This document shows positions 45,213-61,506 of a stretch of DNA of 64,000 nt, piece after piece. How positions within the stretch are numbered: the stretch's first letter is position 1; every line of letters begins with the position of its first letter. The notes below the pieces were generated by a model that worked only from the letters and a program-made list of their open reading frames with translations, was not told where the DNA came from and did not search any database. Made by a program: the position numbers and the translations under genes. Source of the stretch: Beijerinckiaceae bacterium (GTDB lineage: Bacteria; Pseudomonadota; Alphaproteobacteria; Rhizobiales; Beijerinckiaceae); the NCBI GenBank assembly GCA_027533425.1, contig JAPZUD010000006.1:372001-436000 (forward strand). The letters are read 5' to 3'.

Positions 45213-45229
45213 CCGGCAATTTTTGCCGG
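45213..45229. promoter_or_regulatory. Palindrome CCGGCAA-TTT-TTGCCGG, candidate FlbD site for fliK
   Basis: A perfect 7-bp inverted repeat with a 3-bp spacer (arms 45213-45219 and 45223-45229). It sits about 110 bp upstream of the sigma-54 element of fliK, a normal enhancer position. Related palindromes precede fliF and flhA. In Caulobacter the activator FlbD binds ftr elements with a CGGC-containing, A/T-centred core, so this is read as an FlbD site by inference. Confidence 0.55.
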
Positions 45230-45324: not shown

Positions 45325-45340
45325 TGGCCTCCGGCTTGCA
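45325..45340 (+). promoter_or_regulatory. Sigma-54 (-24/-12) promoter of fliK-flgD
   Basis: TGGCCTCCGGCTTGCA matches the sigma-54 consensus TGGC-N7-TTGCW at exact spacing, with GG at 45326-45327 and GC at 45338-45339. The expected start of transcription is near 45351, about 20 bp before the fliK ATG. Flagellar hook genes are commonly sigma-54 dependent in Caulobacter-type hierarchies. Confidence 0.7.
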
Positions 45341-45371: not shown

Positions 45372-46886
45372 ATGATGTCGAACACGATGCTGACCAGCCT
45401 GACCAATGCCCTGACGGAAATCGCCAATCGCCGCGCCGATATGCGGCCGGGCGAGCGCCAGACCGCTCGGGACGAGAACGAGACGGACAATTTCGGCTCG
45501 CTGGTCTCGGAATGGGCCCGGTCGGCGCCGGGGCCGCAGCGTCAGGAGGCGCGTCCCGTGCCCCTGCAGGAAAATGCTCCTGAACGTACACCCCGGGCCC
45601 GGCCGGCTGCCGACGAGAAGGATGCACCTCGCCGCCGCCCGGAAGACGCGGCCCCGAAGCGCGCGGATCGCAGGGAAGACCGGACCGACGAGGCGCCCGA
45701 TTCCTCCCTCCATGAGGACCGCGCCGATGGGCGCCGCATCGCCGGGGAAACCCGCGAAGGGTGCCACGATTCCGAGTGCGAAAAGCCTGAAGCCGAAGAG
45801 GCGGCCGAAGCACAGGCCGACGGCAATGAGGCCGGCGAGACCGATGCCGCCGCCAAGGCGGAGGGCGAGCCAGCCGTGGCCGGGGAAACCACCGGCACAA
45901 CCGAAAGCGAGGCCACGGAATCGACGGCTGAAGCGGTCGTGATCGTGGCTGTCGACGCGCCGGTCGATGCCGAGGGCGTCCTTGCGGCTCCGGTCGTCGC
46001 GGCTCCGACGGGTGACATGCCGGTCGAAGGCGAGGCCGTTGCCACGACCGGCGCGGCCGCCATGGCCACCAAGGCGGCTGCCGATGCTGCTGCCGCGATC
46101 GAGACCAGTTCCGCGCCGACGAAGGATGCCGGAGCGACCGGCGCCGTGACCCTGGCCGGCAAGTCCGGCGCAGAGGCCGGCACTTCTCCGGACGCCGCCA
46201 GCCCTGAGCCGGCATCGCTCCTCGCCGCGACAGAGACATCGGGCAAGGCGGCCAAGACCTCCGAAGCCACCACGACCCCGACCGGAACGGAAGCGAAGGC
46301 GCAGGGCGCCGGCCAGGGCCATCATCCGGTCCGGACGACGCCGTTCGCCGAGTTGTTCCACGGCATGGGCACCCAGAACGCGATCTATCGCCCGGCCGAC
46401 ATCCTGGCCGGCCTCGACCGCGCACTGCCGACCGCGGCTCTCGGCCAGGCCGAACCCACGGCCATCCGCCCGACACCGCTGCAGATGCTGCCCATCGAGA
46501 TCGGCATGCAGGCCGTGCGCGGGGTCACGAATTTCCAGATCCGCCTCGATCCGGCTGAACTCGGCCGCGTCGATGTCAAACTCCAGATCAAGGAGAATGG
46601 CGAAGTGAATGCCAGCCTCGTTGTCGACCGCGTCGAGACGCTGCAGATGCTGCGCCGCGATGCCTCCACGCTCCAGCAGGCCTTCGAACAGGCCGGCCTG
46701 AAGCAATCCGCCGATGGGCTGACCTTCTCCCTGAGAGGGGAAGGCCAGTCGGGACAGCAGCAGGAACGGGGCCGTCAGGGCTCGTCCCAGCAGGGTCTCG
46801 AGGACATCGGCACCAAACCGCAGATGGGCGATTTGGTGATGCGTCGCGCCCTCATCCCCAACACCAGCCTTGATCTGATGATCTGA
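45372..46886 (+). CDS. fliK: Flagellar hook-length control protein FliK
   Basis: The 504-residue protein has a charged N-terminal part (about 1-150), a very long low-complexity Ala/Thr/Glu-rich linker (about 150-310) and the conserved C-terminal hook-length domain, with [20 protein letters not shown] (about 387-406) and [15 protein letters not shown]. FliK acts as a secreted ruler that switches export from hook to filament subunits. flgD follows 13 bp downstream. Upstream lie a sigma-54 promoter and a candidate FlbD site. AGGA at the right distance supports the ATG at 45372. Confidence 0.92.
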
Positions 46887-47632: not shown

Positions 47633-47908
47633 ATGAGTGAACCACTTCGCCCGCGTGTGAAGTATGTCATCGGTCCCGATGGCAGCCCCCTGACCATCGC
47701 CGATCTGCCGCCGCCGGAAACCCGTCGGTGGGTGATCCGCCGGAAGGCCGAAGTGGTCGCTGCCGTCCGGGGTGGCCTGCTTTCTCTCGAGGAAGCCTGC
47801 TCGCGCTACACGCTGACGGTCGAGGAATTCCTGTCCTGGCAACATTCGATAGACGAGCACGGCCTCGCCGGGCTCCGTACGACCCGCATCCAGCATTATC
47901 GCCAGTAA
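47633..47908 (+). CDS. sciP: CtrA inhibitor protein SciP (DUF1153)
   Basis: The 91-residue protein is almost wholly the DUF1153 domain: YVIGPDGSPLTIADLPPPET, RRWVIRRKAEVVAAVRGGLL and SLEEACSRYTLTVEEFLSWQ follow one another in a helix-turn-helix fold. In Caulobacter SciP binds CtrA and blocks its activation of target promoters, limiting them to one part of the cell cycle. Here the gene sits inside the flagellar region, 79 bp after flgD, with ctrA 13 kb away. A CtrA-like box precedes it and a good terminator follows. Confidence 0.93.
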   Translation: MSEPLRPRVKYVIGPDGSPLTIADLPPPETRRWVIRRKAEVVAAVRGGLLSLEEACSRYTLTVEEFLSWQHSIDEHGLAGLRTTRIQHYRQ

Positions 47909-49053: not shown

Positions 49054-49068
49054 TTAACGGCCCGGTAA
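49054..49068 (+). promoter_or_regulatory. CtrA-like box upstream of fliF
   Basis: TTAA-CGGCCCG-GTAA is one mismatch from TTAA-N7-TTAA and continues into CC AT, giving TAACCAT, as in the flhA promoter. The box centre is 90 bp before the fliF start and 24 bp before the centre of the palindrome at 49076-49092. Confidence 0.55.
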
Positions 49069-49075
49069 CCATCCA

Positions 49076-49092
49076 CCGGGCAATTCTTGCCT
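49076..49092. promoter_or_regulatory. GGCAA-TTC-TTGCC palindrome upstream of fliF, candidate FlbD site
   Basis: The core arms GGCAA (49079-49083) and TTGCC (49087-49091) flank TTC, within CCGGGCAATTCTTGCCT. The centre is 66 bp before the fliF start. In Caulobacter FlbD represses fliF through an ftr site in its promoter; a similar role here is inferred. Confidence 0.5.
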
Positions 49093-49150
49093 AGCGCAGG
49101 AAACGCGACGCACGCAATTCGCGTCGGACAGAAAGCTGGATGGTGGGGCA

Positions 49151-50839
49151 GTGAACGGCATCCTCGAACTCGTGAACCGGTTGGGACCGCAGCGCCTGGT
49201 GGCGATGGGGGCCGTGACCCTAGCTCTCGTGGGCTTCTTCGCCTTCGTCATGACGAAGATGTCCGGCCCGAACATGGGCGTTCTCTTCAGTGATCTCCCG
49301 ATCCAGGATTCGAACGCCATCGTTCGGGACCTGGAAAACCGCGGGGTCCGCTACGAACTCCGCGGGGACGGCACCACAATTCTCGTCCCCCGGGACCAGA
49401 CCACCCGCCTCCGGATGGAATTCGCCAGCAAGGGCATGCCCGCCGGCGGCACGGTCGGCTACGAGATCTTTGACAAGAGCGACAGCTTCTCGGCCACCAG
49501 CCTCGTCCAGGGTGTCAACCAGCTCCGGGCTCTCGAAGGCGAACTGTCCCGCACCATCCGCAGCATCGAGCGGGTGCAGCAGGCCCGCGTCCATCTCGCC
49601 ATCCCCGAGAAGCGCCTGTTCGAACGAGACCGGCAGGAACCCCGCGCCTCGATCGTGCTGAAGGTCCGGGGTGAACTCGAACCGGGCCAGATCCGGGCGG
49701 TGCGCCATCTCGTGGCCACAGCAGTCCAGGGCCTGAAGCCCGAGCGTGTCTCCATCGTCGACGAGACCGGCCGTCTGCTGGCCGACGGCGCCGGCAACGA
49801 GACCGATGCCGCGGCACTTGCTGCTGACAAGCAGAGCAACCACGAGCGCCGCCTGCGCGGCCAGGTCGAGGATATTGTCGCCAGCATCGTTGGCCGCGGC
49901 CGGGCCCGGGTGCAGGTGGCTGCCGAGATGGATTTCAACCGCGTGCAGCAGGTGACCGACAGTTTCGATCCCGAAAGCCGGGTGATCCGCTCCACCCAGA
50001 CCCGGACCGAGAACCAGCAGAGCCAGGAAACCCGCGACAACCAGGTCACGATCGGCAACGAACTGCCGCAGCAACAGCAGCAGAATGCGCCCGCCAACCC
50101 GCAGCAACGGGATGCAACCCAGCGCAACGAGGAAATCGTCAATTACGAGATCACGAAGACCACCCGCACCGAAATCATCGAAGCGGGCCGGGTGAAGCGG
50201 CTCTCGGTCGCAGTGCTGGTTGACGGGATCTACACCCCCGGCGCCAACGGCCAGATGAGCTATCAGCCACGCCCGGCTGAGGAACTCGAACGGATCGCCG
50301 CCCTGGTGCGCTCGTCGATCGGGTTTGACCGCAACCGGGGTGACCAGGTCGATGTGATCAACCTCCGCTTCGCCGAGGGCGTGGCGGCGGTCGAGGGCCG
50401 GACGCCGACCTTCACCGAGCAGATGCTCGCCCTGACCAAGGAAGACGTGCTCCGCATGGTCGAGATCGGCGTCTTCGGACTGCTGACCCTGCTCGTCACG
50501 CTGCTGGTGGTCCGCCCCCTGCTGCGCCAGATGGGGATCGGCACGAAGGACCGCACCGAGACTTCTCTGGTCGCCCTGCCGCAGATCGGCGGCCTCCAGA
50601 GCGTGATCGACGCCTCCGGCATGGTGCCCGGCGCCACCGGACCGGCCGGCCAGCCGCTTGCCCTGCCCGCGCCGGGCCAGACCGGCGCCATGGTCGCCGC
50701 CAATTCGAACCAGGCGAACGTCAACACGATCCAGCACGCACTCCAGCAGGGCGCAATCGATAGCCTCGGCCGGATTGTGCAGGAAAACCCGAGTGAATCC
50801 GTGGCGATCGTTCGCCAGTGGATCGCCCAGACACGCTAA
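49151..50839 (+). CDS. fliF: Flagellar MS-ring protein FliF
   Basis: The 562-residue protein has an N-terminal transmembrane helix (VAMGAVTLALVGFFAFVMT, about 16-34), the ring-building motifs (FSDLPIQDSNAIVRDLENRG and ALEGELSRTIRSIERVQQAR), a long periplasmic region and a second transmembrane helix near 430-455 (IGVFGLLTLLVTLLVVRPLL). The C-terminal tail binds FliG. The start is GTG. fliF heads the fliF-fliG-fliH-fliN-flbD-flhA operon and is preceded by CtrA- and FlbD-like sites. Confidence 0.97.
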   Translation: MNGILELVNRLGPQRLVAMGAVTLALVGFFAFVMTKMSGPNMGVLFSDLPIQDSNAIVRDLENRGVRYELRGDGTTILVPRDQTTRLRMEFASKGMPAGGTVGYEIFDKSDSFSATSLVQGVNQLRALEGELSRTIRSIERVQQARVHLAIPEKRLFERDRQEPRASIVLKVRGELEPGQIRAVRHLVATAVQGLKPERVSIVDETGRLLADGAGNETDAAALAADKQSNHERRLRGQVEDIVASIVGRGRARVQVAAEMDFNRVQQVTDSFDPESRVIRSTQTRTENQQSQETRDNQVTIGNELPQQQQQNAPANPQQRDATQRNEEIVNYEITKTTRTEIIEAGRVKRLSVAVLVDGIYTPGANGQMSYQPRPAEELERIAALVRSSIGFDRNRGDQVDVINLRFAEGVAAVEGRTPTFTEQMLALTKEDVLRMVEIGVFGLLTLLVTLLVVRPLLRQMGIGTKDRTETSLVALPQIGGLQSVIDASGMVPGATGPAGQPLALPAPGQTGAMVAANSNQANVNTIQHALQQGAIDSLGRIVQENPSESVAIVRQWIAQTR

Positions 50840-50879: not shown

Positions 50880-51941
50880 ATGGCGAAGACGAGTACAGCG
50901 GAAAAGACGCCGGATACCGCTCCGGCACCGAACAAGGAGCTGACACGGTTCCTCTCCGGCCCGGAAAAGGCGTCGATCATCCTGCTCGTCCTGGGCGAGC
51001 GCTACGGCGCTCCGATCTGGGAATCGCTGGACGAAGACGAGATCCGGTCCGTCTCCCGCGCCATGTCCCGGCTGGGGGCAGTCACCGCAGACGCGGTGGA
51101 GGCCCTCGTCGCGGAATTCCTGTCGATGATGAGCCAGGGTGGCGCCGTCACGGGCGATTTCGACCGCACGGAAGCCCTGCTGAGCAAATTGATGCCGGGG
51201 GACAAGGTCGCGGCCCTGATGGAGGAGCTGCGCGGGCCGGCAGGCCGCAACATGTGGCAGAAGCTCAGCAATGTGCAGGACCAGGTGCTCGCCAATTATC
51301 TCAAGGGCGAGTATCCGCAGACCGTTGCCGTCATCCTGTCGAAGATCCGCTCGGAGAATGCGGCGCGCGTCCTCTCGCTGCTGCCGCACGAATTCGCGCT
51401 GGAAGTGGTGAACCGGATGCTCAACATGGAGCCGGTGCAGAAGGAAGTCCTCGCCCATATCGAGGAGACGCTGCGCACCGAGTTCATCTCCAACCTGTCG
51501 CAGACCTCGCGCCGGGACAGCCACGAGATGATCGCCGAGATCTTCAACTCCTTCGACCGCCAGACGGAAAGCTGGTTCCTCGCCGCGCTCGACGAGCGCA
51601 ACCGCGAGGCCGCGCAGAAGATCCGGTCGCTGATGTTCACCTTCGACGATCTGGCGAAGCTCGATCCGGGCTCGACCCAGACCCTGATCCGCTACTCGGA
51701 TCGCGATATTCTCGCTGTCGCGCTCAAGGGCGCGGCACCGGCCATGAAGAAGTTCTTCTTCCAGCAGATGTCGACCCGCGCTGCGAAGAACATGGAGGAA
51801 CTGATGCAAAGCCGCGGTCCTGTCCGCCTCAAGGAGGTCGACGAGGCCCAGACCCGCATTGTCATGCTGGCGAAGGAACTGGCGTCGAAGGGTGAAATCA
51901 CCATCGGCAAGAACCGCGCCGAAGACGAACTGATCTACTGA
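50880..51941 (+). CDS. fliG: Flagellar motor switch protein FliG
   Basis: The 353-residue rotor protein has the N-terminal FliF-binding domain ([19 protein letters not shown]), the middle EHPQ-type segment [20 protein letters not shown], and the C-terminal domain with [20 protein letters not shown] and charged residues that face the stator. It forms the C-ring torque interface. It starts 40 bp after fliF with a GGGGCAAG site. Confidence 0.97.
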
Positions 51942-51951
51942 AGGCCACGCC

Positions 51952-52599
51952 ATGTCGACCGCTCGCTCCGCCTTCACCTTCGGCCGGGATTTCACCAAGG
52001 CCGGCTCGGGCCTGCCCTTCATCGAGCCCGGCCAGCGCGTGCCGGTGCCCTATCCCGAGCATGCGCGCCTCGTCGAGGAAGCCCGGCAGGCCGCCTACCA
52101 ACAGGGGATCGAGGAAGGCCGGCGGATGCAGGCCGACCATGAGCAGATCCGGATTGCCAACGGCCTCGACGCCATCAATGCCCGGCTCGAGATCGCGACG
52201 ATCGAAATGCGGCGGCTCGAGGAGACGGCGCGGAGCGAAGCCCTCGCGTTTGCCATGCTTTTCGCCCGCAAGATTGCCGGACGTCTGATCGAGACGGCGC
52301 CGGTCGGCGCGATCGAGGCGACCGCGCGGGCGATCTTCAATGATCTCCGCGGTTCGCCTCATGTCGCGGTGCGTGTGGCGCCCGATCTCGTCGATCCCTG
52401 CAAGGAACGCCTGATGGGCCTCCTGAAGGAAAACGGTATTGAAGCACGGCTCTTCGTCTTTCCGGATCCGGAAATCGCCCTCGGGGATTGCCGGATCGAA
52501 TGGTCCGATGGCGGCATCGTCCGCGACCGGAACCGTCTCGAAAACCTTGTCGAGACATCGGCGAAGATGCTGTTCCCCGATGCCGGGGACAACCACTGA
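51952..52599 (+). CDS. fliH: Flagellar assembly protein FliH
   Basis: The 215-residue protein has the FliH layout: a divergent N-terminal segment with YPEHARLVEEARQAAYQQGI leading into an extended helical stalk (about 40-105) and a C-terminal domain with VAVRVAPDLVD and ALGDCRIEWSDGGIVRDRN. It regulates the export ATPase FliI, encoded 7 kb away in the fliJ-fliI unit. It lies between fliG (10 bp gap) and fliN (40 bp gap). Confidence 0.88.
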   Translation: MSTARSAFTFGRDFTKAGSGLPFIEPGQRVPVPYPEHARLVEEARQAAYQQGIEEGRRMQADHEQIRIANGLDAINARLEIATIEMRRLEETARSEALAFAMLFARKIAGRLIETAPVGAIEATARAIFNDLRGSPHVAVRVAPDLVDPCKERLMGLLKENGIEARLFVFPDPEIALGDCRIEWSDGGIVRDRNRLENLVETSAKMLFPDAGDNH

Positions 52600-52639: not shown

Positions 52640-52987
52640 ATGGCCACTGACAACAATTTCCAGCTCCAGGATCTGGAATCGACCGCTGATCTCGTCGCTG
52701 CTGCCTATGGCAGCGATGGCGAGACCCCGCTTTCATCCAAGACGGCGGCGGATCTGGAGCATGTCTTCGATGTGCCGGTCCAGGTCTCGGCCGTTCTCGG
52801 CAGGTCCAAGATGGGCGTGGGCGAACTCCTCCGGATGAGCCCCGGCCATATTCTCGAACTCGACCGCCGCGTTGGCGAGGCGATCGACATTTTCGTCAAC
52901 GACCGACTGGTCGCCCGCGGCGAAGTGGTGCTGGTCGATGACAAGCTCGGCGTGACCATGACGGAAATCATCAAGTCCGACCGCTGA
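52640..52987 (+). CDS. fliN: Flagellar motor switch protein FliN
   Basis: The 115-residue protein is a SpoA/FliN domain (VFDVPVQVSAVLGRSKMGVG, then LRMSPGHILELDRRVGEAID and VNDRLVARGEVVLVDDKLGV) preceded by a short 35-residue acidic head. FliN forms the base of the C-ring and helps dock FliH. A GAGGA site precedes the start. Confidence 0.96.
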   Translation: MATDNNFQLQDLESTADLVAAAYGSDGETPLSSKTAADLEHVFDVPVQVSAVLGRSKMGVGELLRMSPGHILELDRRVGEAIDIFVNDRLVARGEVVLVDDKLGVTMTEIIKSDR

Positions 52988-53016: not shown

Positions 53017-54384
53017 ATGCGGCTTCTGATTGTCGGAACCTTGCGCGGTGAATTGATCACCGCCGCGAAGATCGCCCGGGAGAGGGGCGCGTCGGTCGCA
53101 CAGGTCGACGGGATCGAGGCCGCCCTGTCCCATCTGCGGCAGGGCAAGGGCGCCGATCTGGCCATGGTCGATGCCCATCTCGACATTGCCGCCCTCGCGC
53201 AGGGCCTGGCGGCCGAGCACATGACGCTGCCGATCGTGGCCTGCGGCGTCGCGAATGACAAGCGCGCGGCCGTAGCGGCCATCGAGGCTGGCGCGAAGGA
53301 GTATATCCCGCTCCCGCCCGATCCGGAGCTGATCGCGGCGATTCTCGAGGCTGTCAGCAAGACCGAGACGTCGATCGTCTTCCGGGACGAGGCGATGGGC
53401 CGAGTCATCAAGCTGGCGCAGCAGATCGCGGGCTCGGATGCTTCCGTGCTGATCACCGGGGAATCGGGCGTCGGCAAGGAAGTCATGGCGCGTTTCCTCC
53501 ACGAGAAATCGCGTCGCTCGGGCAGGCCCTTCGTCTCGGTCAATTGCGCCGCCATTCCGGATAACCTGCTGGAAAGCGAGCTCTTCGGCCATGAGAAGGG
53601 CGCCTTCACCGGCGCTATCGCCCGGCGCGTCGGCAAGTTCGAGGAGGCCGATGGCGGCACCCTCCTGCTGGACGAAATCTCGGAAATGGATGTCCGTCTG
53701 CAGGCCAAGCTGCTCCGGGCAATCCAGGAACGCGTGATCGACCGCGTTGGCGGAACCCGCCCGGTTCCGGTCGATATCCGCATTATCGCGACCTCGAACC
53801 GCAACCTCGCCGAGAGCGTGAAGGCCGGCGAGTTCCGCGAGGATCTTCTCTATCGGCTCAATGTCGTCAACCTGAAGATCCCGCCGCTCCGGGAGCGGCC
53901 GAACGACATCATCGAGCTCGCGAACCATTTCGCGAAGCGCTACGCCCAGATGAACGGCCTGCCGGTCCGCCCGATCAGCCATGATGCCAAGCGGATGCTG
54001 CTGGCCAACCCCTGGCGCGGCAACGTGCGCGAGCTTGAAAACACGCTGCATCGGGCTGTCCTGCTGGCAGGCGGCATCGATATCGGGCCGGAGGCAATCC
54101 TGACCCCGGAAGGGGAATCGATCAGCCGTGATGCCAATGAGGCCACAGCACGGAAGGTGGCGGAAGCCGCCGAGGCCGCAACGCGCGCCCTGGTTGGCCG
54201 AACCGTGGCCGATGTCGAGCGCGAGCTGATCCTCGACACGCTCGATCATTGCCTCGGCAACCGCACCCATGCGGCCAAGATCCTCGGTATCTCCATCCGG
54301 ACCTTGCGCAACAAGCTCAACGAATATGTTGCCGTCGGCATCGATGTTCCGGAGCCCGGCGCCGCGCGGATTGCCGCGCTTTAA
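53017..54384 (+). CDS. flbD: Sigma-54-dependent flagellar regulator FlbD
   Basis: The 455-residue activator has an atypical receiver domain (about 1-115) that keeps Asp52 but lacks the N-terminal acidic pair and the conserved Lys, an AAA+ domain with Walker A GESGVGKE (148-155), the sigma-54 contact loop GAFTGA (195-200) and Walker B ending LLLDE (216-220), and a Fis-type helix-turn-helix at the C-terminus (HAAKILGISIRTLRNKLNEY). A degenerate receiver is usual for FlbD, which in Caulobacter is controlled by FliX. It lies between fliN and flhA and is likely the factor acting at the palindromes at fliF, flhA and fliK. Confidence 0.95.
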   Translation: MRLLIVGTLRGELITAAKIARERGASVAQVDGIEAALSHLRQGKGADLAMVDAHLDIAALAQGLAAEHMTLPIVACGVANDKRAAVAAIEAGAKEYIPLPPDPELIAAILEAVSKTETSIVFRDEAMGRVIKLAQQIAGSDASVLITGESGVGKEVMARFLHEKSRRSGRPFVSVNCAAIPDNLLESELFGHEKGAFTGAIARRVGKFEEADGGTLLLDEISEMDVRLQAKLLRAIQERVIDRVGGTRPVPVDIRIIATSNRNLAESVKAGEFREDLLYRLNVVNLKIPPLRERPNDIIELANHFAKRYAQMNGLPVRPISHDAKRMLLANPWRGNVRELENTLHRAVLLAGGIDIGPEAILTPEGESISRDANEATARKVAEAAEAATRALVGRTVADVERELILDTLDHCLGNRTHAAKILGISIRTLRNKLNEYVAVGIDVPEPGAARIAAL

Positions 54385-54400: not shown

Positions 54401-54415
54401 GTAACCGGGCGTTAA
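54401..54415 (+). promoter_or_regulatory. CtrA-like box upstream of flhA
   Basis: GTAA-CCGGGCG-TTAA is one mismatch from TTAA-N7-TTAA and continues as TTAACCAT. The box starts 17 bp after the flbD stop, suggesting that flhA has its own promoter. Its centre is 24 bp before the centre of the following palindrome, exactly as at fliF. Confidence 0.55.
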
Positions 54416-54423
54416 CCATATGC

Positions 54424-54440
54424 CCGGCAAAAATTGCCCA
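54424..54440. promoter_or_regulatory. CCGGCAA-AAA-TTGCCCA palindrome upstream of flhA, candidate FlbD site
   Basis: Arms at 54424-54430 and 54434-54440 with spacer AAA; the core GGCAA/TTGCC is perfect. On the opposite strand the core equals the fliK element. The centre is 65 bp before the flhA start, matching the 66 bp at fliF. Confidence 0.5.
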
Positions 54441-54496: not shown

Positions 54497-56638
54497 ATGA
54501 GTGACGCGAGCCTTGGCGGCAAAGGGGGCCTTCCTGGACTCCAGACGCCAAAATTCATGACACCTCAAGAGCTTGGCGCTTTCCTGAAGCGGGGTGACAT
54601 CGCCCTGGCGATGGGGATCCTGACGATCCTGGTTGTCCTGATCGTACCCCTGCCGCCAATGGTCCTCGACCTGCTGCTGGCCTTCTCGATCATCCTCTCG
54701 GTCCTGATCCTGATGACGGCGCTCTTCATCGCGGCGCCGCTGGAATTCTCGTCCTTCCCGACAATCCTCCTCATCGCGACGATGCTGCGATTGTCCCTGA
54801 ACCTCGCCTCGACCCGCCTGATCCTGCAGAACGGCCATACCGGCCAGGGCGCGGCCGGCCATGTGATCGAAGCCTTCGGCAATTTCGTGATGGGCGGGAA
54901 CTTCGTGATCGGGGTGATCGTCTTCGTGATCCTGGTGATCGTCAATTTCGTTGTCATCACCAAGGGCTCGAGCCGTATCGCGGAAGTCGCCGCCCGCTTC
55001 AGCCTCGACGCGATGCCGGGCAAGCAGATGGCCATCGACGCCGACCTCTCTGCCGGCCTGATCGATCAGGACGAAGCCAAGGCCCGCCGCAAGGCCCTCG
55101 AGGACGAGAGCGCCTTCTTCGGCGCGATGGACGGTGCCTCGAAATTCGTGCGCGGCGATGCGATTGCCGGCATCCTGATCACCTTCATCAATGTCGTAGG
55201 TGGCATCATCATCGGCGTCGCCCAGAACGGCATGACCTTCAATGATGCGGCGAAGGCCTACACGCTGCTGACGGTCGGCGACGGTCTTGTCACGCAGATC
55301 CCGGCGCTGATCGTCTCGACCGCGGCCGGCCTGCTGGTCTCGAAGGCCGGCGTGACCGGGGCGGCCGACAAGGCCCTGTCCAAGCAGCTGGCCAGCTCGT
55401 CGAAGGCGCTCGGCATGTCCTCCTTCGTGATGGTGGTCATCGCCATCCTGCCGGGCATGCCGGCAATTCCCTTCCTGGGCCTTGCCCTGCTGGCCGGCTA
55501 CATGGCCTGGCGCCTCGACAGGCAGGAAAAGCAGGCCAGCATCGATGCCGCCGCCGAACAGGCCATGGAGCAGGTTGTGGCCCAGCAGAAGGCCTCCGAT
55601 CCGCCCGTGCAGGAAGCGCTGCGGCTCGACGAATTGAGGATCGAGATCGGCTATGCCCTTCTCCCGCTGGTGCAGGGCCAGAACGGCGAGGACAAGATCA
55701 CCGAGCAGATCAAGGCCCTGCGCCGGACGCTGGCGACCGAGATGGGCTTCATCCTTCCCTCGGTCCGGCTGGTCGACAATGTCCAGCTCGAGTCGAACCA
55801 CTACGTGATCAAGATGAAGGAAATCGATGCCGGGAATGGCGTCGTCTTCCCGAACCAGTACATGGCGATGGATCCGGCCGGCGGGCAGGTGCAATTGCCG
55901 GGCGCGCATATGCTGGAGCCGACCTTCGGCCTGCCGGCCACCTGGATCGACGAGAGCCTGCGCGACGAGGCGCAGCTGCGCGGCTACACCGTGGTCGACC
56001 CGGCCACCGTCATCGCCACGCATCTCACCGAGATCATCAAGAACAACATGGCGGAGCTGCTCTCCTATGCGGAGGTGCAGAAGCTGCTGAAGGATCTCTC
56101 GAAGCCGCATCAGGACCTCGTGAAGGATCTGACCGGCGGGGCCATCACGATCACCGGCATCCAGCGCATCCTGCAGCTGTTGCTCGCGGAGCGGGTCTCG
56201 ATCCGCGATCTGGGCACCATCCTTGAGGCAGTGGCGGAAGTGGCCGGCACGGTGACGCGGGATCCGCGCATGATCGTCGAGCATATCCGCTCGCGCCTCG
56301 GCCGGCAGATCTGCGCCCAGCATACCGGGCCGACCGGCCAGCTGGCGCTGATCACCCTGTCGCCGAGCTGGGAAGATGCCTTCGCCTCGTCGCTGGTCGG
56401 CGATGGCGAGATCAAGCATCTCGCGATGCAGCCCTCGCGCCTGCATGACTTCGTCATCGCCCTGCGCGACCGGTTCGAGGAAGCGGCGCGACTCGGCGAA
56501 TTGCCGGTCCTCGTCACCTCGAACGCGATCCGCCCCTATGTGCGCATGATTGTCGAGCGGTTCCGGCCCCAGACGGCCGTGCTGGCCCAAGGAGAGATCC
56601 ACCCATCCGCACGGTTGCGGACGGTCGGCTCGATCTGA
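54497..56638 (+). CDS. flhA: Flagellar export gate protein FlhA
   Basis: The 713-residue protein has about eight transmembrane helices in its N-terminal half with the family motif FPTILLIATMLRLSLNLAST (about 92-111) and the FHIPEP-like loop region near RFSLDAMPGKQMAIDADLSA. The C-terminal cytosolic domain (about 370-713) docks chaperone-substrate complexes. The ATG at 54497 has AGGGGA just upstream; the frame is open 21 codons earlier. It closes the fliF-to-flhA gene run and has its own candidate promoter. Confidence 0.97.
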   Translation: MSDASLGGKGGLPGLQTPKFMTPQELGAFLKRGDIALAMGILTILVVLIVPLPPMVLDLLLAFSIILSVLILMTALFIAAPLEFSSFPTILLIATMLRLSLNLASTRLILQNGHTGQGAAGHVIEAFGNFVMGGNFVIGVIVFVILVIVNFVVITKGSSRIAEVAARFSLDAMPGKQMAIDADLSAGLIDQDEAKARRKALEDESAFFGAMDGASKFVRGDAIAGILITFINVVGGIIIGVAQNGMTFNDAAKAYTLLTVGDGLVTQIPALIVSTAAGLLVSKAGVTGAADKALSKQLASSSKALGMSSFVMVVIAILPGMPAIPFLGLALLAGYMAWRLDRQEKQASIDAAAEQAMEQVVAQQKASDPPVQEALRLDELRIEIGYALLPLVQGQNGEDKITEQIKALRRTLATEMGFILPSVRLVDNVQLESNHYVIKMKEIDAGNGVVFPNQYMAMDPAGGQVQLPGAHMLEPTFGLPATWIDESLRDEAQLRGYTVVDPATVIATHLTEIIKNNMAELLSYAEVQKLLKDLSKPHQDLVKDLTGGAITITGIQRILQLLLAERVSIRDLGTILEAVAEVAGTVTRDPRMIVEHIRSRLGRQICAQHTGPTGQLALITLSPSWEDAFASSLVGDGEIKHLAMQPSRLHDFVIALRDRFEEAARLGELPVLVTSNAIRPYVRMIVERFRPQTAVLAQGEIHPSARLRTVGSI

Positions 56639-60374: not shown

Positions 60375-60804
60375 TCCCGCCCCCAACCGCTGGCCAGCCG
60401 CCCGAACGACCGCTGATTCGCTGCGAATCACCGGCAAATGCTAGCTCAGAACAGGCATGAGAGGCGAGCGCGGGCCCGCGCTATCCAGCACCGATTGGCG
60501 GGCTGCTCCGGCATCACAGAAGGCATGCCGGCCAAAAGGATGAGTCAGTCGAATCGTTTAGCCGGATCTGCTGGGAGATCGAATCAACTCGACCGGACTC
60601 AAAAAATTTCGCAAAAATCATCGGCAGTTAGGAAAAATCCTGAAGAAACAGCATCAAGCTTGCCTTAACGAATTACGCTTTGTTAACTCTTCGGGCGTAA
60701 TTTGTGACTGAAGTTTTAAGGCATGGACCGCGAGCCGGATCGTCGCTGACGGTATCGATTCGTCCTGCGGACAGGGCATGGATTATGGGGCCGGGGACCA
60801 GAAA
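60375..60804. other. fliI-ctrA divergent promoter region
   Basis: This 430-bp gap is G/C-rich near fliI and A/T-rich near ctrA (60600-60720). It contains two TTAAC elements (60665-60669, 60683-60687), a CtrA-like box described separately, and a short A-tract region. Two promoters are expected, and ctrA in other species has several. No credible gene was found. Confidence 0.55.
60654..60668 (+). promoter_or_regulatory. CtrA-like box upstream of ctrA
   Basis: TCAA-GCTTGCC-TTAA, followed by C, is one mismatch from TTAA-N7-TTAA. It lies about 140 bp before the ctrA start. CtrA autoregulation is established in Caulobacter, so the site may be an autoregulatory element; the A/T-rich setting makes a chance match possible. 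Confidence 0.4.
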
Positions 60805-61506
60805 ATGCGCGTTCTCCTGATTGAAGACGACAACGCCACCGCCAAGAGCATCGAACTGATGCTCAAGTCGGAGAACTTCAACATTTACCTGACCGATCTC
60901 GGCGAAGAAGGGATCGATCTGGGCAAGCTGTACGACTACGACATCATCCTGCTCGACCTGAACCTCCCGGACATGTCCGGCTACGAGGTGCTGCGGTCGC
61001 TGCGCGTGGCCAAGGTCAAGACGCCGATCCTCATCCTTTCGGGCATGGCCGGCATCGACGACAAGGTGAAGGGCCTCGGCTTCGGCGCCGACGATTACCT
61101 GACCAAGCCATTCCACAAGGATGAGCTCGTCGCCCGCATCCATGCGATCGTGCGTCGCTCCAAGGGCCATGCCCAATCCGTCATCCAGACCGGTGATCTC
61201 GTCGTGAATCTCGACCAGAAGACGGTCGAGGTCGGTGGCCATCGCGTCCACCTCACGGGCAAGGAATACCAGATGCTCGAGCTGCTCTCGCTGCGGCGGG
61301 GGACGACGCTCACCAAGGAAATGTTCCTCAACCATCTCTATGGCGGCATGGACGAGCCGGAACTGAAGATCATCGACGTCTTCATCTGCAAGCTGCGCAA
61401 GAAGCTCGCCAATGCCTCCGAAGGCCGGAATTACATCGAGACGGTCTGGGGCCGCGGTTATGTGCTGCGCGAGCCGCTCGAAACCGACGAGCGGATCCCG
61501 GCCTGA
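60805..61506 (+). CDS. ctrA: Cell-cycle master response regulator CtrA
   Basis: The 233-residue OmpR-type regulator has the acidic pair EDD (7-9), phosphoacceptor Asp51 ([14 protein letters not shown]), Lys101 (LTKPF) and a winged-helix domain with [20 protein letters not shown] and [14 protein letters not shown]. This is the near-invariant CtrA sequence of alphaproteobacteria, where it controls cell-cycle, flagellar and replication genes. The ATG at 60805 begins [19 protein letters not shown] with GGGGA upstream. Here it lies between the fliJ-fliI and chemotaxis units, with a terminator behind it. The protein ends Pro-Ala, not the Ala-Ala of the Caulobacter degradation tag. Confidence 0.98.

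Follow-up and report, generated by a model that had tools for sequence, protein, structure and literature searches.

The window analysed here is a stretch of 64,000 nucleotides from the 3.75-Mb genome of a Beijerinckiaceae bacterium. It carries flagellar genes and encodes FlbD, CtrA and SciP, each of which scores above its own NCBIfam equivalog cut-off. The genes relevant to this work are the following.

45372-46886, plus strand: fliK, hook length control, putative class III gene (PF02120; start codon chosen in this analysis).
47633-47908, plus strand: sciP, CtrA inhibitor, located after flgD (NF051866, 142 bits, cut-off 100).
49151-50839, plus strand: fliF, MS ring, first gene of a cluster that ends with flbD (TIGR00206, 291 bits, cut-off 129.75).
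50880-51941, plus strand: fliG.
51952-52599, plus strand: fliH-like gene, barely over the cut-off.
52640-52987, plus strand: fliN-type gene.
53017-54384, plus strand: flbD, which closes the fliF cluster and whose product is proposed to read the palindrome described below (NF050807 FlbD equivalog, 787 bits, cut-off 750).
54497-56638, plus strand: flhA, export gate (TIGR01398, 895 bits, cut-off 772.1).
60805-61506, plus strand: ctrA, proposed activator (NF045991, 422 bits, cut-off 350).

The genes fliF, fliG, fliH-like, fliN-type and flbD lie on one strand and are separated by short gaps, so that an operator at fliF probably controls FlbD itself; the spacing suggests that fliF to flbD form one operon. 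FliX is encoded on contig C8 of the same genome (PF10768, E 2.3e-32). We also note that sciP directly follows fliK-flgD within the flagellar cluster, and that ctrA (60805) has a near CtrA box (TCAA-N7-TTAAC, 60654-60669) some 140-150 bp ahead of its start, which may point to autoregulation.

Upstream of fliF and flhA, four sequence elements were found.

49054-49068, plus strand: CtrA-type box of fliF, TTAA-CGGCCCG-GTAA (TTAA-N7-GTAA), centre 49061, in line with a logo of 67 related sites.
49079-49091, plus strand: palindrome of fliF, GGCAATTCTTGCC, centre 49085, proposed FlbD operator.
54401-54415, plus strand: CtrA-type box of flhA, GTAA-CCGGGCG-TTAA (GTAA-N7-TTAA), centre 54408.
54426-54438, plus strand: palindrome of flhA, GGCAAAAATTGCC, centre 54432, proposed FlbD operator.

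Both promoters thus combine a box of the type KTAA-N7-KTAA, with one mismatch each to TTAA-N7-TTAA, with a perfect GGCAA-N3-TTGCC palindrome. The original prediction had described these boxes and palindromes, and its coordinates proved correct to the base. The fixed spacing that it claimed was recovered as well: the distance from box centre to palindrome centre is 24 bp at fliF and flhA alike, and the distance from palindrome centre to start codon, with the starts chosen in that prediction, is 66 bp (fliF, GTG 49151) and 65 bp (flhA, ATG 54497). Both boxes continue directly into TAACCAT, again as predicted.

Chance expectation was estimated from 400 first-order Markov windows of 64 kb. The pattern [TG]TAA-N7-[TG]TAA occurs on the plus strand of the window at the fliF and flhA boxes only (2 observed, 0.045 expected). 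Exact palindromes are found three times where 0.095 are expected, and the composite of box and palindrome is found twice, with no occurrence in any of the 400 Markov windows. The palindrome on its own, with one mismatch allowed, was not significantly enriched in the window (5 observed, 2.6 expected, and 5 reached by 11 of 100 shuffles).

The whole genome contains three exact copies of the composite TAACCAT-N6-GGCAA-N3-TTGCC, compared with 0.00016 expected by a base-composition estimate. The three sites precede fliF, flhA and flgB. The flgB site lies outside the window on a different contig, and the FlgB protein exceeds the TIGR01396 cut-off. With up to three mismatches the composite was found 6 times in forward and 5 times in reverse orientation, versus 4 and 1 for the control, so that only exact sites are informative in this genome. 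Exact palindromes number 9 (reversed pattern: 2). Flagellar genes adjoin five of the nine copies: three of these have the CtrA layout, and the other two are placed like enhancers. The remaining four palindromes, at C6:250872, C10:174837, C10:230773 and C11:424344, were viewed in their sequence context and taken as background.

In order to assess conservation, we searched sampled subsets of the genomes of the family, the order and the class. With at most one mismatch, the composite was present in 21 of 60 family genomes (reversed pattern: 1) and in 86 of 199 order genomes (reversed pattern: 2). When the gap between AACCAT and the palindrome was left free between 0 and 30, 111 of 297 genomes matched (reversed pattern: 3). 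A gap of 6 was the clear mode, with 65 of 150 rows among the matches listed; a gap of 17 accounted for 33 of these rows, and any other gap for at most 6. The gap of 17 places the AACCAT 11 bp further away, at the position of the upstream CtrA half. Among the matches listed, 13 of the 33 gap-17 rows also have AACC at the gap-6 place, 12 have a different repeated sequence, and 8 have neither. All 12 rows with the different repeat belong to genus g62. This repeat reads AACCATCC...GAGGT...GGCAAGSCTTGCC (for example at G078:C1:2142146); in G078, a one-mismatch composite stands on the opposite strand at a distance of about 75 bp.

Genes downstream of the composite were assigned for 59 sites in 57 loci, which come from the best matches only and are not a random sample: flgB followed in 22 cases, flhA in 17 and fliF in 10, and 10 sites were left without assignment. 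Seven of these 10 are one-mismatch matches beside genes that are non-flagellar or without identification, and another, in L138 at 2875, lies where the locus ends just after the start of the open reading frame. The expectation that the palindrome and its 24-bp spacing would be conserved at orthologous promoters was thus borne out, by 86 of 199 order genomes and by 49 of 59 sites before fliF, flhA or flgB. The last two of the 10 sites without assignment are in L137 and L138 (both at 1501), where a gene for a LysE-type exporter has its own CtrA-FlbD composite upstream; in L137 this gene comes after a flbD-like gene. Both loci contain a second composite further on, which precedes flhA in L137, and the LysE-gene composite looks as if it were a duplication of the flhA promoter. 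By FlhA, the closest named relative of the window is L010 (82%), titled Methylobacterium sp.; other Methylobacterium loci reach 67-68%, and the title of the L010 record may be a misassignment.

A sequence logo was calculated from 67 distinct sites. The input comprised 77 sites with at most one mismatch, from which 7 were dropped as no flagellar gene was recognised alongside (one site each in L111, L121, L134, L144, L153, L154 and L158), leaving 70 sites, 67 of them distinct. The logo reads TTAAC-N6-(G)TTAACCAT-NNRCCC-GGCAAWWWTTGCC-NRG. Letters within the search pattern are conserved by construction, and the informative ones are those outside it, namely the TTAAC upstream of TAACCAT, the RCCC, and the purine after the palindrome.

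For the comparison across genomes we used FliX as a marker of the FlbD/FliX system. FliX was found in 116 of 199 genomes and FliF in 147. The composite was present in 80 of 111 genomes with both FliF and FliX, versus 2 of 36 genomes with FliF but without FliX (Fisher's exact test, 4e-13), in 1 of 5 genomes with FliX but without FliF, and in 3 of 47 genomes with neither. Both composite carriers with FliF and without FliX are incomplete assemblies (78% and 58%) from one family, whose other three sampled members have FliX. As the Fisher test treats genomes as independent, the comparison was repeated at the level of families, with two mixed families (f22, f36) placed among those with FliX. The composite occurred in 25 of 31 families with FliX and in 0 of 9 families whose FliF-positive genomes all lack FliX (p = 2e-5). 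A composite with at most one mismatch was absent from 31 of the 111 genomes with FliF and FliX and from 6 of the 31 families with FliX.

The same palindrome also stands upstream of putative class III promoters. We searched the 199 order genomes for the palindrome 70-100 bp before TGGCAC-N5-TTG and obtained matches in 14 genomes, and none with the reversed pattern. In all 14 matches the palindrome lies 95-120 bp upstream of a sigma-54-type site before flgF or a flgE-like gene, a range of distances that is fixed by the search pattern itself. Three of the downstream proteins are FlgF above the TIGR02490 cut-off; the other 11 exceed the FlgE/F/G subfamily cut-off and are nearest to FlgE models among named genes, though below the cut-offs of those models. 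The match in the genome under study is a FlgF over the cut-off. Here the exact palindrome at C9:22263 lies upstream of the sigma-54-like site TGGCACGCCCTTTGTT, and flgF is followed by genes for another rod protein of the FlgE/F/G family and for FlgA-type and FlgH proteins. A similar, less certain arrangement was found before fliK in the window, with a palindrome that the original prediction had left unmentioned.

45215-45227, plus strand: third exact palindrome of the window, without CtrA box, proposed FlbD enhancer of fliK.
45325-45340, plus strand: sigma-54-like -24/-12 site TGGCCTCCGGCTTGCA before fliK, agreeing with the sigma-54 consensus at 9 of 11 positions.

The palindrome lies 117 bp upstream of the -12 element of this site, which is weaker than TGGCACGCCCTTTGTT of flgF. 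As a scan of the window, sigma-54-like sites were at chance level (20 observed, 15 expected). We also considered that the palindrome might itself be a sigma-54 -24/-12 site, and ruled this out by spacing: the consensus is GG-N10-GC, and the palindrome arms provide GG-N8-GC.

In order to see how far the arrangement extends beyond the order, fliF upstream regions were surveyed across the class with a degenerate palindrome, using those 36 of the 54 loci L010-L063 that had a near-complete FliF match and at least 200 bp upstream. In 17 of these 36 named alphaproteobacterial regions, the palindrome is accompanied at the fixed place by a CtrA half that matches in 6 or more of its 8 letters; in 13 it lacks a well-matched CtrA box (L027, L030, L031, L035, L036, L042, L045, L047, L050, L052, L057, L058 and L063), and the other 6 regions contain no palindrome. 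Palindrome and CtrA box are therefore separable. In L030 and L050, a sigma-54-like site (9 of 11 positions) follows 77-78 bp beyond the fliF palindrome, and FlbD may activate fliF there, judging from this layout. Many stretches were tested, and sigma-54-like sites that agree at 9 of 11 positions are also found behind the palindromes of the box-bearing L020 and L029. The fliF regions of a Caulobacteraceae genome (L040) and of Caulobacter sp. D5 (L049) have box and palindrome at the fixed place, with arms GGTAA...CTGCC, and Hyphomonadaceae L056 has the same layout with weaker arms. A position matrix scan of the flhA upstream regions of these three loci gave no composite-type site. The matrix was partly built from loci that were later scored; L040, L049, L056, L024 and L025 contributed no site to it. 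The strict composite pattern was found in 5 of 385 genomes of the class, always before flagellar genes (fliF 2, flhA 2, flgB 1); this pattern is narrow, and the count therefore says little about absence elsewhere.

Start sites were predicted by comparison with the Caulobacter ctrA P2 promoter, for which PMC4287350 places the 5' base of the activating full CtrA site at -39. Applied to the composite, this anchor has transcription starting two bases beyond the palindrome, which itself would span -14 to -2.

49093, plus strand: A, predicted transcription start of fliF, counted 39 bp from the T at the 5' end of the CtrA box, with a possible error of several bases.
54440, plus strand: predicted flhA transcription start (A), with the same geometry as at fliF; a prediction only.

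The predicted start position is an A or G in 94% of the 67 sites, and the palindrome core is A/T-rich and located where the -10 element is expected by this geometry. According to PMC4287350, full CtrA sites lie near -35, and the spacing of the ctrA sites is termed atypical in PMC6180460. The -39 anchor is therefore soft, and the predicted start is possibly some 4 bases off. Even with this reservation, a shift by 4 bases would leave the palindrome over the core promoter.

Taken together, we consider it very probable that the composite serves as a class II flagellar promoter, switched on by CtrA and off by FlbD as in the Caulobacter circuit. CtrA, bound to the box TTAA-N7-TTAACC around -35 (predicted extent -39 to -25), would recruit RNA polymerase and thereby switch on fliF to flbD, flhA and flgB. 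Once MS ring and export gate have been assembled, FliX would license FlbD, a step taken from Caulobacter. Licensed FlbD would bind GGCAA-N3-TTGCC at about -14 to -2, mask the -10 region, and so shut the fliF, flhA and flgB promoters. Since flbD is the last gene of the fliF cluster, the switch would act as delayed negative feedback. At sigma-54 promoters, where the palindrome lies 95-120 bp upstream, FlbD would turn on flgF, flgE and probably fliK. Observed directly are the sequences, their spacing and conservation, the gene context, the co-occurrence with FliX, and the presence of flbD, ctrA, sciP and fliX; that each protein binds, in which direction it acts, where transcription starts and how the operons are composed is deduced. 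The proposal that the palindrome is the FlbD site is supported by the co-occurrence with FliX, by the copies at enhancer distance before flgE-like genes and flgF, and by the related fliF site in Caulobacterales. The proposed CtrA-on/FlbD-off switch is likewise supported, by comparative evidence.

A more specific version of this model is put forward tentatively, and we would not be surprised if it failed. The composite may be a rigid module of about 40 bp. Its FlbD operator would double as the -10 element (AA-WWW-T inside the palindrome), with a purine start two bases beyond, so that the sites for activator, polymerase and repressor would form one unit, present at fliF, flhA or flgB in 25 families of the order. 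In other lineages fliF has the palindrome without the CtrA box, and a few fliF genes might be activated by FlbD and sigma-54, so that the sign of control would be reversed at an orthologous gene.

Among the alternatives, the one that survives best also takes the palindrome as the FlbD site, and differs in having FlbD help or tune class II initiation instead of repressing it. We consider this improbable. It gains from the fact that we infer the sign of FlbD control here, and from the 13 of 36 alphaproteobacterial fliF palindromes without a well-matched CtrA box, together with the activator layout seen in L030 and L050. However, the palindrome of the composite is placed at the expected -10 and not at enhancer distance, and in Caulobacter fliF is reported to be derepressed without FliX (PMC3096577) and repressed through ftr4 (PMC3930126).

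That a regulator other than FlbD, also co-occurring with FliX, reads the palindrome appears more improbable still. The pairing of palindrome and FlbD was made by sequence comparison, and PMC4287350 reports that CtrA promoters of Caulobacter are also targets of other regulators (MucR, SciP). Yet all 14 matches have the palindrome at enhancer distance from a sigma-54-type site that precedes a hook or rod gene, and the SciP motif given in the same source is GCGNC, located at -60 to -90. Finally, the idea that chance or local duplication made the promoters alike without function can draw on the shortness of the palindromes and on their non-significant one-mismatch count in the window, but it is negligible, as the composite recurs in 25 families with FliX with little conservation of the flanks, and a chance origin is ruled out by the exact genome count, the 86 order genomes and the Markov simulations.

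A literature search, which covered few subscription papers, turned up no description of the composite at fliF, flhA and flgB, and none outside Caulobacter of GGCAA-N3-TTGCC as an FlbD consensus; as a sign that neither has been published, this is weak. In Caulobacter it is established that CtrA activates early genes and that FlbD represses fliF. New here is a strongly conserved further instance of this known switch, not a new kind of switch. The results suggest that many related families share the CtrA-on/FlbD-off logic of Caulobacter at their first flagellar operons (fliF, flhA, flgB), with the wiring conserved at the level of bases. They also provide a simple candidate FlbD consensus, GGCAA-N3-TTGCC, with which class II and class III flagellar promoters can be predicted and which perhaps gives a name to unexplained motifs in start-site maps.

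One such motif may come from Methylosinus sporium 5. In its transcription-start map (PMC12403871), a Motif 3, called novel, lies at most 40 nt upstream of the starts of flgB, fliF, flgF, flgE and motA. Motif 3 may be the GGCAA-N3-TTGCC element, which is a guess. As to Bradyrhizobium, four loci (L012-L015) have the exact composite before flhA. Going by its title, a 2021 article by Dardis et al. treats FlbD-FliX of Bradyrhizobium diazoefficiens as class II regulators that control flagellar synthesis.

The closest parallel is Caulobacter itself. According to PMC3930126, early genes are activated there by CtrA, and FlbD represses fliF via ftr4 and activates middle genes; PMC3096577 reports that fliF-lacZ is up and fliK-lacZ down in a fliX mutant. 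The fliF promoter of the window resembles that of Caulobacter in the gene, in the proposed activation by CtrA, and in the proposed repression by FlbD through a site that, by its position at the orthologous promoter, would be equivalent to ftr4; the spacing in Caulobacter sp. D5 is the same. In contrast to Caulobacter fliF, both palindrome arms are perfect here, and the layout is also found at flhA and flgB. The class III-type sites have their counterpart in the FlbD/sigma-54 class III promoters of Caulobacter, where FlbD activates from such an enhancer position (PMC3930126, PMC7064773): here, too, the palindrome lies upstream of -24/-12-type sites, before flgE-like genes, flgF and fliK. These sites differ from the class II composite in that the palindrome has no CtrA box and occupies the position of an activator.
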